This document shows positions 3,581 to 40,007 of a stretch of DNA of 64,000 nucleotides, in pieces; within the stretch, counting starts at the first letter, position 1; each line of letters starts with the position of its first letter. Source of the DNA: Neisseria canis (lineage in GTDB: Bacteria > Pseudomonadota > Gammaproteobacteria > Burkholderiales > Neisseriaceae). Made by a program: the position numbers and the translations under genes. The notes beneath the pieces are model-generated. The model searched no databases. It had not been told where the DNA came from and worked only from the letters and a program-made list of their open reading frames with translations. Location: assembly GCF_900636765.1 (NCBI RefSeq), contig NZ_LR134313.1, positions 2,356,001 to 2,420,000 of the forward strand, given 5' to 3'.

Positions 3581-4489
3581 TTAGTTGTTTTTCTCGCCGT
3601 GCAGAATAATTTCCACTCTACGGTTCGGTTGGTCACATGCTTTGCGCGCTGTAGCATCTTTAGGATGCTTGGCTCGGCAGTCTGTTACGATAAGATCATT
3701 TTCTCCGCGCCCTTCGGAAGTAATCAGATTCGGATCCAATCCGCTTCCAGACAAGGCTTCTTTTACTGTTTTAGCGCGAGCTAAAGACAGTCTATTGTTA
3801 TACTGATCATTACCCTCAGGATCAGTATAGCCAATAACTTGAATACCGCTTATACGGCCAGGATTTTGTTTGATATCCTCAGATACAGCAGCAATCTCCT
3901 GCTTACCTTTGGGCAACATATCCTTATAGCCTGAACGGTCAAATTTAAACAAGGCAGAAGCTTGTAAAGTATATTTCTTCAATACTGTTGAACACTGCTC
4001 TGCTGTTTGCACTCTTGACAGAGTGTGATGTTGGCTCTGAACGCCTTTCATTTCTTGCTCTGCCTGCTCAGGAGAAACAGCTTGCAATGCAGGACGGCCG
4101 TTTTCTCCTTTGACGATTTTGAAGAATGAAACGGCTGCTTCGGGCAAATTATAGTAATCACCTGAATTTGCTTTTTCGTTATAAGCTACGTCTCTATTGG
4201 CAAACTCAGCAAAAAATCTTTGGTTTTGAGCACATACAGTTTCTTGACGATATGCGTTTGGCTGCAATGAACCCAAATATTGACCATTCACATAAACATT
4301 AACGGTAGGGCCTTCGATAGCATCTGCTTGGCGGTAGAACACAACCGAAGATTTATCATCCGGCACACTGGTGCTATAAACGGTATCTGTCGTATCAGTC
4401 CAAACTTCACGGTTTGCATTTTTGTAAACACAACCTGTTGCAAGCAACGGCAGCATCAATAACCACAGTTTTTTATGCTGAATCATCAT
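3581..4489 (-). CDS. OmpA-family outer-membrane lipoprotein
   Basis: A 302-residue protein with a lipoprotein signal peptide: hydrophobic LWLLMLPLLATGC with the lipidated Cys at 20. The C-terminal third (about 170-298) is an OmpA-like peptidoglycan-binding domain, with FKFDRSGY, then IQVIGYTDPEGN, NNRLSLARA and RRVEI in the expected order. The middle part is not recognised. It ends 18 bases before the Ig-like adhesin gene and is read in the same direction, so it is probably the first gene of that operon. OmpA-like lipoproteins often accompany type I secreted adhesins, so a role in anchoring or export of the adhesin is an inference. Confidence 0.85.
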   Translation of the reverse strand: MMIQHKKLWLLMLPLLATGCVYKNANREVWTDTTDTVYSTSVPDDKSSVVFYRQADAIEGPTVNVYVNGQYLGSLQPNAYRQETVCAQNQRFFAEFANRDVAYNEKANSGDYYNLPEAAVSFFKIVKGENGRPALQAVSPEQAEQEMKGVQSQHHTLSRVQTAEQCSTVLKKYTLQASALFKFDRSGYKDMLPKGKQEIAAVSEDIKQNPGRISGIQVIGYTDPEGNDQYNNRLSLARAKTVKEALSGSGLDPNLITSEGRGENDLIVTDCRAKHPKDATARKACDQPNRRVEIILHGEKNN

Positions 4490-5128
4490 TATAAATCTCC
4501 ATTTAATTTAAGCACCGCAATGTTAGAAGTGAATGTGTACCTAAATTACATTTGGTTTAAACACAAGAAACCTTAATTTTACGCGACGACACCAAATCGA
4601 CTTAAATTTTAGTAAAGGACTGTAGGACTCTTTAACAAGCTCATGTGATGAAAGTGCATTGACTTCGTAAAGTTATCCTAGCAAAATCCCAAAACAATTT
4701 TTAAGAGAATGATATGAAATGGCACCGAGATAGATTAATGACATTAAATAACAAAGCACCTATCCCATGTCGAAGCAAAAATAAACGGCCTCCATACTAG
4801 ATAAATGGCATTATACTAAAAATGATTTATCTTGCATATTTTTAGGAAATTTAGTTCATCTTTTAGATAGCTTCCAACTATCATTTTTTTTATTATTTAA
4901 AATCATAAAGTTATAAAATTTATATTTACAAATACAAAACAGAACCCGAACCCTATTTAAATAAACGATTAATTTACATAGAGTTGCATTTTTGACACAC
5001 AACAACAAAAAACGTTTACAGACGCAAGCTTTCCTTCAAGCTATTTTTGAATCAATATTTTGATTAACTTAATTCATGATTTGAACAAATATTTCAGCCA
5101 GTTGATTAAATAAATTTCTTTATCCACC
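4490..5128. other. AT-rich intergenic region
   Basis: About 640 bases between the divergent lipoprotein and smc genes. It is very AT-rich, has no DUS copy and contains no convincing gene. It probably carries the promoters for both directions. The only candidate small frame is 28 codons at 4714-4800 (+), starting MKWHRDRLM, preceded by AAGAGA. I do not call it a gene. Confidence 0.6.
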
Positions 5129-8100
5129 ATGCGCCTTACACATATCAAACTCACCGGTTTCAAATCTTTCACAGACCCTACGACCATTCATGTGCCGGGA
5201 CAATTAGTTGCCGTTATCGGCCCTAACGGCTGCGGCAAATCCAATGTAATTGATGCGGTTCGCTGGGTTTTAGGTGAGGCTTCTGCCAAGCAACTGCGTG
5301 GAGAAAGTATGCAGGATGTAATTTTTAACGGTGCGGCAACACGCCGACCCGCACCCCGTGCATCGGTTGAACTGGTATTTAACAATGCAGACCAATCTTT
5401 GCAGGGACCTTGGGGAAAATATACAGAAGTAAGCATTAAGCGGCAGTTAACCCGACAAGGAGAATCCACTTATTACATCAATAACCAAGTGGTGCGCCGC
5501 CGCGACATCACGGATTTATTTTTAGGTACGGGTGTAGGCGCGCGCGGTTATGCAGTTATCGAGCAAGGCATGATTTCCCGAATCATTGAAGCCAAGCCTG
5601 AAGAATTGCGTGCTTATATAGAAGAGGCCGCCGGCGTGTCCAAATATAAGGAGCGCCGCAAAGAAACCGAAGCCCGTCTGAAAGACACCCGGGAACATCT
5701 GCAACGCCTTTCCGATTTACAAACAGAACTTGCCCGCCAAGTTGAAAAACTGGAAAAACAGGCAGAGACCGCCGAACGCTATCAAACACTGACCGAACAA
5801 CTTGCCCAACAACAAGACTTATTAGATTACACCCAATGGCAGCAATCTCTCGCAGCGGCCGACAAAGCTACCCAACAACACCGTATCTCCCAACAAAAGC
5901 AAGACGAAACTGCCAAACAAAACCAAGCAGCCGGAGAAGCATTGCACGCATTGCGTGACGAAGAACACAAGCAGCAGCAGCAAGCCCAAGAAACAAGCAA
6001 CCAACGGGCTATGTTGCGGGAGCAGATTGCCCGCCTGGAAGAGCAATTGCGCTCCCAACACAACCTGCAACAAAGAATCCAGCGCGACCGCCAAGCCGCC
6101 CAAGCTCAGTTGCAGCGCATTTATTCAGAAAAACAAAATATTCTCAACGAGCTGGAAACTCTAGAAACCGATTTGGAAGACAAGCAGGTCGAGCTGGCAG
6201 AATGGGCGATGCAGGTTGCGGAAAGAGAAGAAAGCCTGCCCGAACTAGAGACCGCGCAAAATACACTAAGCGCTTCTTTCCAAGCCCAACAAGACGAGCT
6301 GAACCGCATCAAAAGAGAACTTGCGCTCAAACAGCAACGGCTTGCCCACGCCAGCCAAACACTGAAGCAGCACGACACACGCAAAGAACGCCTGAATCAA
6401 GAAGCACAATCCCTCAATTTGCCACCCGAAGCAGAAATTTCAGCCGCACAAGAACAAGCCGAAATACTGCAAGCAGAGCATGAACATTATGAACAGCAGC
6501 TGTTAGACAGTGAAGAACGCTATGCCTGTCTGAAAGAAAACGTTCAGACAGGCATAAGTGCATACAACGACTTATACCAAAAACACATCACACTTCAAGC
6601 CGAACAGCAAGCTATCGGCACATTGCTGCAAAACAGCAGCCCAAACCATGACTTTTGGCAGCAGACACCCCACGCTACCGCACCGGCATTATGGGAACAC
6701 ATCAAAGCGCCTGATGACTGGCAGCACGCATTAGCCGCCTTTCTTGAAACAAAATTACAAGCAAAAGCCCTAAATGCTGAAAGTAATTTACCCACACCCT
6801 TGCCGCAAGGCTCTGCAGCATGGTTTTACACCGACTTGTCCTCAAGCCGCAAAACCCAACCGGCACAGGCATTGATCAACCAAATACAAGCCACACAGCC
6901 CTACCAAGCTGCGCTTACATACTGGCTCGACGGCGTTTTATGTGCGCCATCTCTGGATTACGCCCTGCAAAATCGGGAGCGCTTACAAGGCCATCAACGC
7001 TGGCTGACACCCGAAGGCCATCAAATTGATGCCATCGGCGTCGTGCTTTATGCCGAAAAAAACGGACAGAACCTGATTGAGCTGAAAAACCGCCAAGATT
7101 CGCTCAACGAGCAACTCCAAGCCATCGCACCTCTCCTGAAACAGGCCGAGCAGAATAAACAAGAAGCCCAAACTACTATCGAAGCGCATGAAACACAACA
7201 CAAAACATTGCAGGCACAACACCGCCAACATGCCGCACAACTGCACGCAGCACAAGCCAAAGCCACCGAATTGCTCACGCGCACCAACCAAGGGCAGCTT
7301 AGGCGCGAGCACATTGAGCAAGAGCTGCTGCTGCTTGAAGAAGATCAAATCACACTCGAACACAGCAGCGACAGTCTGCAAAACGACATAGAATCGCTCA
7401 CCGAAGCCGCCACCGAATTAGAAAGCCAACAAAATGCACTAAACAGCACACGCCAAAGCCGGCAAAACGAGCTCAAGCAGGCCCAACTCGCCCTACTTGA
7501 AGCAAACCGCCGCTACGGCGTGGTTGAAGTGGCCGTACACAAACAACAGCAGCGCAAACAATCACTGGAGCAGCACATCGCCACACTCGAACAGCAAACA
7601 TTAGATTGGCAAGAACGGCAAACAGAGCTCGCGCTGGCCTATGAAACCGAAGAGCAAGACTGCGAACAGCGCGAAAAACTCGAAGTGCTGACCGAACAAG
7701 TTGCCGTTTTAGAAGAGCAATACCTTGCCATACAGGAATGCCTGTCTGAAACCCAGCAGCGAGGCCGCGAACTGTATGCCAAGCAGCAAACGCTTGCCGC
7801 AGCCCTGCCCCAGCTGCAGGCCGCCACCCAAACCGCCCTGCTGCAACAGCAAGAAGCCTTAATCAATGCCAAACGCCATCACCAAAACTTGGAAGAGCGG
7901 CATGCCGATTTCGATGCGCTTGCCAAACTGGCCGGGAAATCCGGTTTGAAAGAGCTTTCCGGCGGCATCCGCAGCCTGGCGCAACAAATCGAAGCATTGG
8001 GTGCCGTCAACCTCGCCGCCCTTAAAGAGCTGGAAGAAGCGCGCGAACGCGACGGCTATTACCGCAGCCAAAGCGAAGACGTCCAATCCGCCATCGATCT

Positions 8101-37840: not shown

Positions 37841-37880
37841 AACAAAAGTAAAGATATTCAAAAATAAAAATCAACAGCCA

Positions 37881-37922
37881 ATTTAGAAAATATACTTAAA
37901 TTACAACATATATTTTCTAAAT
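37881..37922. terminator. AT-rich hairpin at the end of the bacteriocin cluster
   Basis: Perfect 14-bp inverted repeat (37881-37894 with 37909-37922) and a 14-base loop. It lies between the end of hemF and the stop of the small membrane protein, so it may terminate in either direction. It is not a DUS. Confidence 0.5.
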
Positions 37923-37927
37923 TGCAT

Positions 37928-38086
37928 CTACCTATTAACAAAATACTTTTCCGTAATAAAAGCAAAAACAATAGTAGCAATCAAACAGGATATGACTATT
38001 TGTATTAAACCAGCTCCCAATAAATAAGAAACAAATGCAGAAATGATAAAAAATACAGCATAAAAAACGATCTTTTTGATTTTCAT
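37928..38086 (-). CDS. 52-residue two-helix membrane protein, candidate bacteriocin immunity protein
   Basis: Begins ATG at the complement of 38086 and ends TAG at 37928-37930. The product starts MKIKKIVFYAVFF and ends EKYFVNR. It has a basic N-terminus and two hydrophobic segments (about 6-22 and 25-44) separated by a Gly-Ala-Gly turn. This size and topology are common for class II bacteriocin immunity proteins. It lies directly downstream of the bacteriocin precursor, separated by a terminator hairpin. Codon use is very AT-rich, unlike hemF. The Shine-Dalgarno is weak (GAG about ten bases upstream). Function is inferred from position and topology only. Confidence 0.6.
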   Translation of the reverse strand: MKIKKIVFYAVFFIISAFVSYLLGAGLIQIVISCLIATIVFAFITEKYFVNR

Positions 38087-38125
38087 AATTGAACTCAACT
38101 TAAGTTATTCGATTATAGAAACAAA

Positions 38126-38170
38126 ATTAGCAAGCAAAAGATGCAAAGATCGCATCTTTTGCTTGCTAAT
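38126..38170 (-). terminator. strong intrinsic terminator after the bacteriocin gene
   Basis: Perfect 19-bp stem (38126-38144 with 38152-38170) and a 7-base loop, followed on the minus strand by TTTTGTTT. It starts four bases after the bacteriocin stop. It would limit read-through into the small membrane-protein gene. Confidence 0.85.
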
Positions 38171-38173
38171 AAA

Positions 38174-38425
38174 TTACCACCAGCCTGCGACAGTATAAGC
38201 AGCAGCGCCTCCTAAAGCTCCTCCAACGAACCCAACCGCAGCACCAGGAATAGCACCAGGCCCGAAAGCAGCACCAGCAACACCTCCTGCAATACCAGTA
38301 GAAACAGCACCTGTAGCAGTATATCTACCAAACTCTTTCCAACTCCATGCACCACCAGCAATCAAATCCAATTCAGCCATAGTTAATTCACGGGCACCAA
38401 ATTCATTTATCACTAAAGTTTGCAT
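38174..38425 (-). CDS. class II bacteriocin precursor with double-glycine leader
   Basis: An 83-residue precursor. Residues 1-25 form a classic double-glycine leader (ARELTMAELDLIAGG), which is cut after Gly25 by C39-peptidase ABC exporters. The mature 58 residues begin AWSWKEFGRY, are rich in Gly and Ala with repeated small-xxx-small motifs (GIAGGVAGAAFG, GFVGGALGGAAAY) and end in GWW. This is the composition of membrane-permeabilising class IIb-type peptides (lactobin/cerein-like). AAGGAGA lies eight bases before ATG. A strong terminator follows, then a candidate immunity gene. No exporter or second peptide gene is recognisable nearby. Target and activity are unknown. Confidence 0.85.
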   Translation of the reverse strand: MQTLVINEFGARELTMAELDLIAGGAWSWKEFGRYTATGAVSTGIAGGVAGAAFGPGAIPGAAVGFVGGALGGAAAYTVAGWW

Positions 38426-38496
38426 AGTAATCTCCTTAAAAAAATTAAAAATAAATATAGTATTCGACTATCACAAATTAAGCAGAAAGAAATTAT

Positions 38497-38649
38497 TTAT
38501 TTCTTTCCATATTTAAGAATAAAAAATCTCAATATTTTAAAGAGCTCTTTTATTCTTAAATTCTTTTTATGGAATACTGTACCAGCATAAATTATTCCAT
38601 AATCATAAATAGTGACAAGTCGAGTGTCGTTAAGTTCAAATTTTTTCAA
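38497..38649 (-). CDS. possible 50-residue basic ORF or gene remnant upstream of the bacteriocin
   Basis: A frame open from a TGA upstream to TAA at 38497-38499. It has no ATG; the first usable start is TTG at 38649. The product would be LKKFELNDTRLVTIYDYGII and then a Lys/Arg-rich helix ending FFILKYGKK. The TTG sits inside a one-mismatch DUS (GCCTGTTTGAA). It may be a real small gene with an unusual start, the 3' remnant of a longer gene, or chance. Not recognised. Confidence 0.25.
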   Translation of the reverse strand: MKKFELNDTRLVTIYDYGIIYAGTVFHKKNLRIKELFKILRFFILKYGKK

Positions 38650-38676
38650 ACAGGCTTTTTCAATTCAACCCAAAGT

Positions 38677-38737
38677 GAATTAACTTAAAAATTGAATGCC
38701 TATCATATTCAGATTTGACTCGAATATCTCCCTTTGC
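38677..38737. repeat. degraded copy of the Correia-like palindromic element
   Basis: GTGAATTAACTTAAAAA followed by TCATATTCAGATTTGACTCGAATATCTC aligns base for base, with about ten differences, to the left half of the element at 47280-47421. Confidence 0.6.
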
Positions 38738-38804
38738 GTCGATTATGACTAAATAATCAGATTACTCTTTAAACAGCTCCCCATTATTTCAGTTTGCGCT
38801 TCAT

Positions 38805-39012
38805 GGCCGCGCGGCCACTTACTTTCTTTGCTTCGCCAAAGAAAGTAAGCAAAGAAAGGCGACCGCGATTGCCGGTTTGCTGCGCAAACTGCCCTCATTG
38901 CGCGGGATTTTCGGGGCGGCCGCTAGTCGCTTCGCTCCGGGAGCGGCCTTGTTCCCCCGAAACCCTCGCTCCGTTCGGCGGCGCCAGCGGGCAAGCCGTT
39001 GTAACAAAGGTT
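38805..39012. repeat. GC-rich foreign-looking patch with a perfect hairpin
   Basis: About 200 bases of high GC embedded in AT-rich sequence. It opens with a 13-bp inverted repeat CTTACTTTCTTTG / CAAAGAAAGTAAG (38818-38830 with 38837-38849, 6-base loop). It continues with short palindromic GGCCGC-type motifs (such as GGGGCGGCCGC and GGGAGCGGCC). Similar AAAGAAAGTAA-rich blocks occur in other proteobacterial genomes as unannotated repeats (recollection). I see no gene in it. Confidence 0.5.
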
Positions 39013-39078
39013 ACCGAAACCCAAGATATTCAGGACGAATGCTTGTATAGCGAATAAACTTATTTTTATTATGTTTTT

Positions 39079-39156
39079 CGTCATGCTCGGGCTTGACCCG
39101 AGCATCTTCTAAGGTTACAGGAATTCAAGATGCTTGGGTCAAGCCCGAGCATGACG
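39079..39156. repeat. palindromic repeat, TCATGCTCGGGCTTGACC type
   Basis: A 78-base palindrome of two facing copies of CGTCATGCTCGGGCTTGACC. It matches the core of the 142-bp element at 47280-47421, but with GC instead of AT at the variable position. It lies just after the udg-like stop on the minus strand. Confidence 0.75.
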
Positions 39157-39173
39157 AACGTAGTCAATTCCGC

Positions 39174-40007
39174 CTACTTCAACACTTCCCTCAAGCGCTT
39201 CAATTCCACCCACGCTTCGGCCTTTTGCAGCGGATGGCGCAACAGGCGGGCGGGATGGGGAACGGTAAACACAGGCAGGCCGCCGCACAGTTCGGCCATC
39301 GTATCCGCCTGCTCGGGTGCGGTGAAAAACTGGCCGAGAAACAATACGGCCTGCGGCCCGGCAAGCTCGAGTTCGGCACGGATGCGCGGCAATGCGCGGG
39401 CGAGTTTGGCGGCGTCGGGATTGGGGTTGAACTCGGTAGCGTCAAGCCAGCTGGTGGGGTGGGTTTGCTGCATGTCCATGCCGATGGCGGCCAGCATATT
39501 GGCCAAAAGTTCGCCCACTTTGCCGCTGAAAAGCCGTCCTGCGATATTGTCTTCCGGCGACGGGCAGATGCTCACAATCATGAGCTTGGCCGGGCGAACG
39601 GTTTCAGACAGGCGTTGTTTGTGGCGGGCTACGGTGTTGTCGGGGTCGGGTTGCGGCTCTGCCGGAACAACCTGTTTCGCCGCCTCTTCGGCTGCGGCTT
39701 CCCGTTCTTTCTGGCGCAGGGTTTTCAAGCCCAATGAGGCCAACGTGGCGGCATGTGCACCTGAAATCGGCACGGCCGGCGCGGCAGGTTCGGGCGGCAC
39801 AGGCCGGGCGGCTTGCGGAACCGGTTTGGCCACCGCTTTTTCCGGTGCAGCAACTTGTTTTGGAACCTGCGGCAAAGCCGCTGTTTTGACAGCTTCAACC
39901 ACGCCCGCTTGTTCGGATTCGGCGGGCAGCACCACGGCGCCGCGTTTCAGCCACATGGGGCCTAATCCGAGCGCTTCGTGCAGGTGAAGATAGCGGCTGC
40001 TCAGCAT
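39174..40007 (-). CDS. uracil-DNA glycosylase-like protein
   Basis: A 277-residue protein with a Pro/Ala-rich region (about 30-90) and a C-terminal UDG-superfamily fold (about 140-277). The glycosylase motif B is intact as PHPARLLRHP. Motif A, usually GEAPG followed by ED, is replaced by SICPSPED before NIAGRLFSGKVGELL. The catalytic acidic residue of family 4 enzymes therefore seems missing or moved, and no iron-sulfur cysteine set is visible. Activity is doubtful. It overlaps rimI by seven bases at the end of a tsaB-rimI-udg operon. Confidence 0.8.
   Translation of the reverse strand: MLSSRYLHLHEALGLGPMWLKRGAVVLPAESEQAGVVEAVKTAALPQVPKQVAAPEKAVAKPVPQAARPVPPEPAAPAVPISGAHAATLASLGLKTLRQKEREAAAEEAAKQVVPAEPQPDPDNTVARHKQRLSETVRPAKLMIVSICPSPEDNIAGRLFSGKVGELLANMLAAIGMDMQQTHPTSWLDATEFNPNPDAAKLARALPRIRAELELAGPQAVLFLGQFFTAPEQADTMAELCGGLPVFTVPHPARLLRHPLQKAEAWVELKRLREVLK

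Follow-up and report, generated by a model that had tools for sequence, protein, structure and literature searches.

A pair of small genes in Neisseria canis probably constitutes a chromosomal class II microcin-like bacteriocin cassette, accompanied by its immunity gene and served by a remote exporter; we place the probability of this reading at roughly 0.75. The pair lies in the window, the whole 64,000-nucleotide stretch of DNA analyzed here, and coordinates without a prefix are window positions. The cassette is an addition to a known kind rather than a new kind, as some relatives of the precursor are already named bacteriocin in databases.

The precursor gene (38174-38425, minus strand) encodes 83 residues from an ATG start. 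An earlier, sequence-only reading had described it as carrying a textbook double-glycine (GG) leader and a Gly/Ala-rich mature peptide with GxxxG motifs. Both descriptions held. Specifically, the leader ends ELTMAELDLIAGG, and its conserved positions are listed in the table below. Among 1000 dinucleotide-preserving shuffles of the surrounding 792-bp AT-rich island, an ORF of 83 aa or more arose in 49, and an ORF of 40 aa or more carrying a GG-leader motif arose in none. The mature peptide has a predicted mass of 5.47 kDa and a pI of 8.5, with Gly or Ala at 30 of 58 residues and 8 GxxxG motifs. It ends in AAAYTVAGWW, and inspection by eye found no Gly/Ser tail. The further suggestion of a class IIb (two-peptide) system was not borne out: a single GG-leader ORF and no partner peptide were found in the island.

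Features of the cassette and its island in the window, with the evidence for each
Feature	Position	Strand	Evidence
AT-rich island, 792 bp, absent from the hemF-UDG site of relative G033	37846..38637		Edges from BLAST
Candidate immunity protein, 52 aa, two predicted helices	37928..38086	-	ORF with ATG, AlphaFold model, HMM from 9 relatives
Terminator-like hairpin between precursor and candidate immunity gene	38126..38170	-	19-nt perfect inverted repeat, T-rich tail
Predicted mature peptide, 58 aa + stop	38174..38350	-	Sequence; core-only HMM from nine relatives
Double-glycine leader, precursor residues 1-25	38351..38425	-	L-12, L-7, I-4, G-2, G-1 read from sequence; relatives with similar leaders
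Likely ribosome-binding site AAGGAGA of precursor	38431..38437	-	By eye, 5 nt upstream of ATG
Right island edge, resembles decayed copy of the uptake-sequence hairpin of G033	38625..38658		Score 31; 1 of 2000 mononucleotide shuffles as high

The Pfam model Bacteriocin_IIc (PF10439) matched the precursor with an E-value of 1.5e-4 and 22.1 bits, below its curated cut-off of 27.1. PF10439.16 is assigned to the precursor in the precomputed annotation of the protein database, and Bacteriocin_IIc matched 8 of 10 precursor-family members at E ≤ 0.1. The MccV profile gave a weak match (E 0.077). A structure model of the precursor (mean pLDDT 48.6) and a search of solved structures with the precursor profile (best E 0.16) were set aside.

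Homologues of the precursor were identified using profiles of increasing depth. Besides the precursor itself, a protein search with its sequence alone yielded a single further protein, encoded on a contig of 1043 bases, and a DNA scan of named genomes returned one locus, in N. wadsworthii 9715 (G048), where a homologous precursor is followed by a 59-residue hydrophobic ORF. A three-row profile yielded 12 matches in 8 of 83 Neisseriaceae genomes, most with a small two-helix-type gene beside them. A 10-row profile matched at least 112 proteins, query included, at E ≤ 0.001 among the 7990 candidates sharing most words. A few of the matched Neisseria proteins are already named "Bacteriocin" (N. 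wadsworthii) or "bacteriocin" (N. yangbaofengii), and matched proteins of N. mucosa and N. sicca (E ≤ 0.001) are called "Blp family class II bacteriocin"; these are source names only, and nothing on an immunity gene, a link to an exporter or the history of the site accompanies them. An HMM built from nine relatives, excluding the window's own letters, ranked the precursor first of 1201 window ORFs (E 8.4e-24), the relatives themselves having been found with profiles that contained the window sequence. The corresponding core-only HMM, with the leader removed, also ranked it first of 1201 (E 4.2e-13).

The homologous genes vary in state and setting. A comparison of the precursor in two relatives showed 11 synonymous versus 2 non-synonymous changes in 90 codons. 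One copy, in G018, looks frame-shifted near its end, and that of G061 lies at a contig edge. One copy in G029 has a stop right after the leader and an open adjacent immunity frame, as expected if protection were kept for itself. The location differs in G048 and G033, whose homologous cassette follows a gene that by eye looks pncB-like. The 3' part of the pncB-like gene recurs in L092 (415-1626 and 6573-6983), approximately 5 kb further downstream; other genes, one of them transposase-like by eye, separate the copies. Carriage by phage or plasmid was unsupported: tblastn with the precursor found no match among 50,697 phage and 72,556 plasmid records.

The candidate immunity gene lies downstream of the precursor, and an alternative TTG start four codons upstream of its ATG would extend the product to 56 aa. 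The AlphaFold model of this hydrophobic 52-mer contains helices at residues 2-22 and 27-49 (mean pLDDT 85.4), in agreement with the two-helix membrane protein that had been proposed. Its size, position and two predicted helices fit the immunity proteins of class II microcins, which span 51-216 aa and have membrane helices. Searches of Pfam, NCBIfam and PHROGs gave no convincing known family, and the best match, ThrE (E 0.0073), was taken as a generic membrane match. The nearest relative is a G051 protein with 35% identity (BLASTP E 3e-10 for that single comparison). An immunity HMM from nine relatives ranked the 52-mer first of 1201 window ORFs (E 7e-4), and the 52-mer is no longer found once two G051-type rows leave the HMM. 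As judged from these alignments, the homology of the immunity proteins is weak.

We also evaluated how closely the immunity gene accompanies the precursor. A protein search with a six-row immunity alignment found 13 proteins at E ≤ 0.01 among 55 candidates. With 11 rows, there were 11 matches in 7 of the 83 genomes, all seven being among the 8 precursor genomes; the eighth is G061. Eight of the 11 lie 90-159 bp (between match edges) downstream of a precursor match on the same strand. The other three are away from precursor matches: two are in the G051 exporter cluster, one of them with an internal stop, and one is alone in G029. Conversely, 4 of the 12 precursor matches have no immunity match. 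These are the frame-shifted-looking copy in G018, that of G061 and two from G051; behind one of the latter stands a 91-residue membrane-type ORF unmatched by the immunity model. Because the model was seeded by position, from precursor neighbours, the informative part of this result is the absence of immunity matches in the 75 precursor-free genomes. The immunity sequences of G048 and G033 are separated by 4 synonymous and 2 non-synonymous changes, one of them at the stop; these are too few to show selection.

A strong terminator had been claimed after the precursor. Indeed, a terminator-like hairpin separates the two genes, with 2 overlapping terminator-like sites found at the hairpin versus 0.6 expected. 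The fold of the precursor-to-immunity gap scored -31.6 versus -11.0 (sd 2.8) for 200 mononucleotide shuffles. Hairpins were predicted in this gap in all seven cassettes folded, and one precedes the 91-residue ORF of G051. Their folds were approximately 2.5 to 9 standard deviations stronger than 200 mononucleotide shuffles in the 6 cassettes with a usable control.

The sequence-only reading saw no exporter nearby and suggested a remote C39-peptidase ABC transporter. Such a system is present. The genome, a single contig of 2,569,389 bases, contains one C39 peptidase match. The match lies in an ABC transporter of 697 residues, which combines a C39, a membrane and an ATPase domain and has an intact frame. 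It adjoins a gene for an HlyD-type adaptor, and a gene for a TolC-type channel lies across a run of peptides. HlyD_3 and OEP scored above their Pfam cut-offs and TIGR01844 (TolC) above its own; the HlyD models of NCBIfam matched below theirs. Residues 11 to 691 of the exporter align with the solved "ABC-type bacteriocin transporter" 4ry2. Exporter residues C26, H99 and D115 are 73 and 16 residues apart, as are those of the catalytic triad reported for CvaB, Cys32/His105/Asp121 (PMC9746304). The exporter is at C1:0.102 Mb and the window cassette at C1:2.394 Mb, approximately 0.28 Mb apart if the contig is circular. With this exporter in the genome and GG-leader homologues that mostly have a small gene beside them, the proposed pairing of bacteriocin and immunity protein is supported, their functions remaining putative.

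Inspection by eye and a motif search located nine GG-leader ORFs around the exporter, two at the remote site C1:1587377-1587717 and one in the window. The two remote ORFs are adjacent to each other, beside a purC-like gene (named by eye; L012 5378-5718), and a similar-looking pair, compared by eye, occurs inside the G018 exporter cluster (L088 7135-7460). The resemblance may reflect the movement of a second cassette between this remote site and the exporter cluster.

Across the 83 genomes, C39 matches were present in 39. They occurred in 6 of the 8 precursor genomes and 33 of the 75 others, with no clear excess. CvaB-like exporters, defined as C39 matches above 115 bits by a line drawn after seeing the list, were found in 13 genomes, one with an internal stop. 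These occurred in 6 of the 8 precursor genomes versus 7 of the 75 others (Fisher p = 1.1e-4, a value that ignores kinship and follows a post hoc line). Inside the exporter clusters of G051 and G018, the TolC-type and HlyD-type genes enclose members of the precursor family, which ties the family and the exporter together directly; in G018 this member is the copy that looks frame-shifted. Weighing against such a tie, G033 and G061 have a precursor and no C39 match, and G033 also has no TolC-type gene of the cluster. G033, a close relative, keeps the precursor-immunity cassette (L015, L056) and is possibly a non-producer that stays immune.

The composition of the island had been contrasted with hemF and rimI on either side. 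The AT-richness stood (31.9% GC versus 52.6% for the window); the right-hand neighbour proved to be a UDG-family gene (39174-40007, minus strand), with rimI beyond it. Among the window's sliding 792-bp stretches, 0.3%, the island included, had a GC content as low. Another AT-rich stretch of the window, 3901-5600, overlaps a lipoprotein-like ORF by eye (within 3584-4507, minus strand).

Two relatives were informative about the history of this site. Their hemF genes are 97% (G048) and 96% (G033) identical to that of the window, and in both the window's UDG gene is matched behind hemF. In G033, the island is lacking, and a hairpin of two inverted wadDUS uptake sequences occupies the site. The G048 site is filled by a different insert. 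It encodes another GG-leader peptide, of 40 residues (L055 2468-2590, minus strand), and two uptake-sequence hairpins flank it, one intact and the other decayed. As there are two different inserts at one site, gain of the island here is favoured over its loss in G033. At the left island edge, a decayed uptake-sequence hairpin was rejected (score 14 versus a shuffle mean of 13.7). The window contains 69 exact wadDUS 12-mers, all of them outside the stretch from 37.53 to 40.16 kb. Earlier work describes both the wadDUS dialect and terminators with inverted pairs of uptake sequences (PMC3630211).

Repeats had been reported to border the island. This was rejected, as they lie outside it: the stretch 38638-39162, which holds the element 38755-39030, is also present in island-free G033, and the element is inverted at the hemF-UDG site of N. 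wadsworthii. This 276-bp element is repeated and occurs at 4 places in the genome, the present one counted. At 39077-39158 there is a hairpin with 32-nt arms, whose near-palindromic core has 5 window matches with up to 3 mismatches on both strands, places possibly being counted twice. As a general cassette site, hemF was unsupported: in 30 hemF loci with 1.5-kb flanks, taken from 54 genomes with a hemF match, the motif search found GG-leader ORFs in 2. The window's UDG gene was matched by nucleotide BLAST in the flanks of only three of these 30 loci.

By analogy with class II microcins, the cassette would function as follows. The genome has a single C39 ABC exporter, whose C39 domain would recognize the precursor leader and cleave it behind Gly25, and the 58-residue glycine-zipper peptide would exit through the adaptor and TolC-type channel. 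Sensitive related bacteria would then be attacked at the inner membrane, where the peptide would insert or bind a receptor and break the barrier. In the producer's inner membrane, the 52-residue two-helix protein would block the peptide. Owing to the intergenic hairpin, transcripts of the precursor would outnumber those of the immunity gene. Finally, the cassette would have been gained at the hemF terminator, perhaps via transformation.

The peptide might act on the producer's own population rather than on competitors, through autolysis or sibling lysis in stationary phase. Precedent comes from the Nap GG peptides of Neisseria, which are encoded in an AT-rich island, as is the window peptide, and are described as promoting autolysis without antimicrobial activity (PMC11798529). 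We consider this role improbable here, given that the genome's only C39 match is an ABC transporter with HlyD and TolC types, unlike the napP/FapF-like channel, that the core is 58 aa versus 36, 16 and 31 aa for the Nap mature peptides, and that a linked small gene lies beside 8 of 12 precursor matches. The cassette could also be a relic, acquired and since deprived of expression or export. The distance to the exporter and the broken precursor copies in G018 and G029 would fit such a history, as would the lack, by eye, of a strong ribosome-binding site at the immunity ORF and the chance level of promoter-like sites (3 found versus 4.3 expected). Decay of this sort is nevertheless very unlikely in view of the intact frames of both genes and of the exporter, the good ribosome-binding site on the precursor and the few protein changes relative to synonymous ones in the precursor between two relatives.

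GG-leader pheromones exist, and the precursor might be a secreted signalling peptide, with the small membrane protein as its partner or receptor. The leader shows a weak match to BlpC (E 0.065), and ComC is matched by one member of the family (E 0.0092). The BlpC match is limited to residues 12-32, the leader and first core residues, and a 58-aa core is long for a pheromone. Pheromones were raised as a role for meningococcal GG peptides by the NeMeSys authors (PMC2784325). The island has no ORF longer than 83 aa and therefore no kinase gene, and overall we judge signalling to be very unlikely indeed.

Returning to the bacteriocin reading, a broader scheme is conceivable, if doubtful. Some Neisseria may have a dispersed microcin arsenal, in which many peptides share one C39 exporter and small units, each a bacteriocin-immunity cassette, travel by natural transformation between the exporter cluster and intergenic uptake-sequence terminator sites. 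The hemF-UDG site, where sister genomes have different cassettes or none, would be an example; the dispersed-cassette arrangement is only partly shown by the present data.

A literature search, mostly outside subscription journals, found no recognized description of the precursor family, its immunity partner or the hemF site. The family, and a chromosome site with gene pairs coming and going, seem little described. Work on meningococcal GG peptides cites what is reportedly a 2004 screen by Dirix and others. Approximately ten class II microcins are counted as validated, most from E. coli (PMC9746304). A homologous family with a recognizable immunity partner in Neisseria, a DNA-uptaking genus, would add a second, tractable lineage, and peptides of narrow spectrum that act on relatives of Neisseria are of interest in their own right. 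With the hemF-UDG site island-free in one relative and otherwise filled in another, cassette exchange is directly testable.

The Nap peptides of gonococcus and meningococcus share with the present cassette the genus, GG peptides and an AT-rich island, of 38% GC in their case. That island is described as containing napI, similar in part to an immunity protein, the C39 peptidase gene napP and a FapF-like channel (PMC11798529). They differ in being short cationic peptides with a C39 peptidase and FapF-type channel alongside, whereas here the core is 58 aa and the C39 domain is part of an ABC transporter. Their reported lack of detectable antimicrobial activity means that GG peptides of Neisseria are not all antimicrobial (PMC11798529). 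By description, the C39 ABC units of meningococcal strain 8013, for which a bacteriocin role was thought more likely in 2009, share with the present cassette the genus, a C39 ABC transporter with adaptor, and glycine-rich GG peptides. The description of these units used here mentions neither an immunity partner nor a remote cassette (PMC2784325).

McbC/McbI of Moraxella catarrhalis likewise comprises a GG bacteriocin followed by a small immunity gene, there tested with mutants. By description, its genes differ in overlapping each other directly downstream of the secretion genes and encode 101 and 74 aa (PMC2761928).

Class II microcin systems are described as comprising a precursor, an immunity protein, a C39 transporter, an adaptor and TolC (PMC9746304, PMC10233263). 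A GG leader, a C39 transporter with the triad, a membrane fusion protein and a TolC-type channel are all present here. The Gly/Ser-rich C-terminal siderophore motif of class IIb (siderophore) microcins was absent by eye. Gene proximity is lacking in the window genome and is seen in G051 and G018, where family precursors are inside the exporter cluster. The described class II microcins are from Enterobacteriaceae (PMC10233263), whereas the present cassette is from Neisseria. Relative to the class IIa-type microcin V (CvaC, Cvi, CvaA, CvaB, TolC), the N. canis cassette differs in being chromosomal and far from its exporter, the known genes being described as in close proximity to theirs (PMC10233263). 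It shares with microcin V the GG leader, a core of more than 5 kDa, an adjacent small membrane immunity candidate, a C39 ABC transporter with the same triad spacing, an adaptor and a TolC-type channel.
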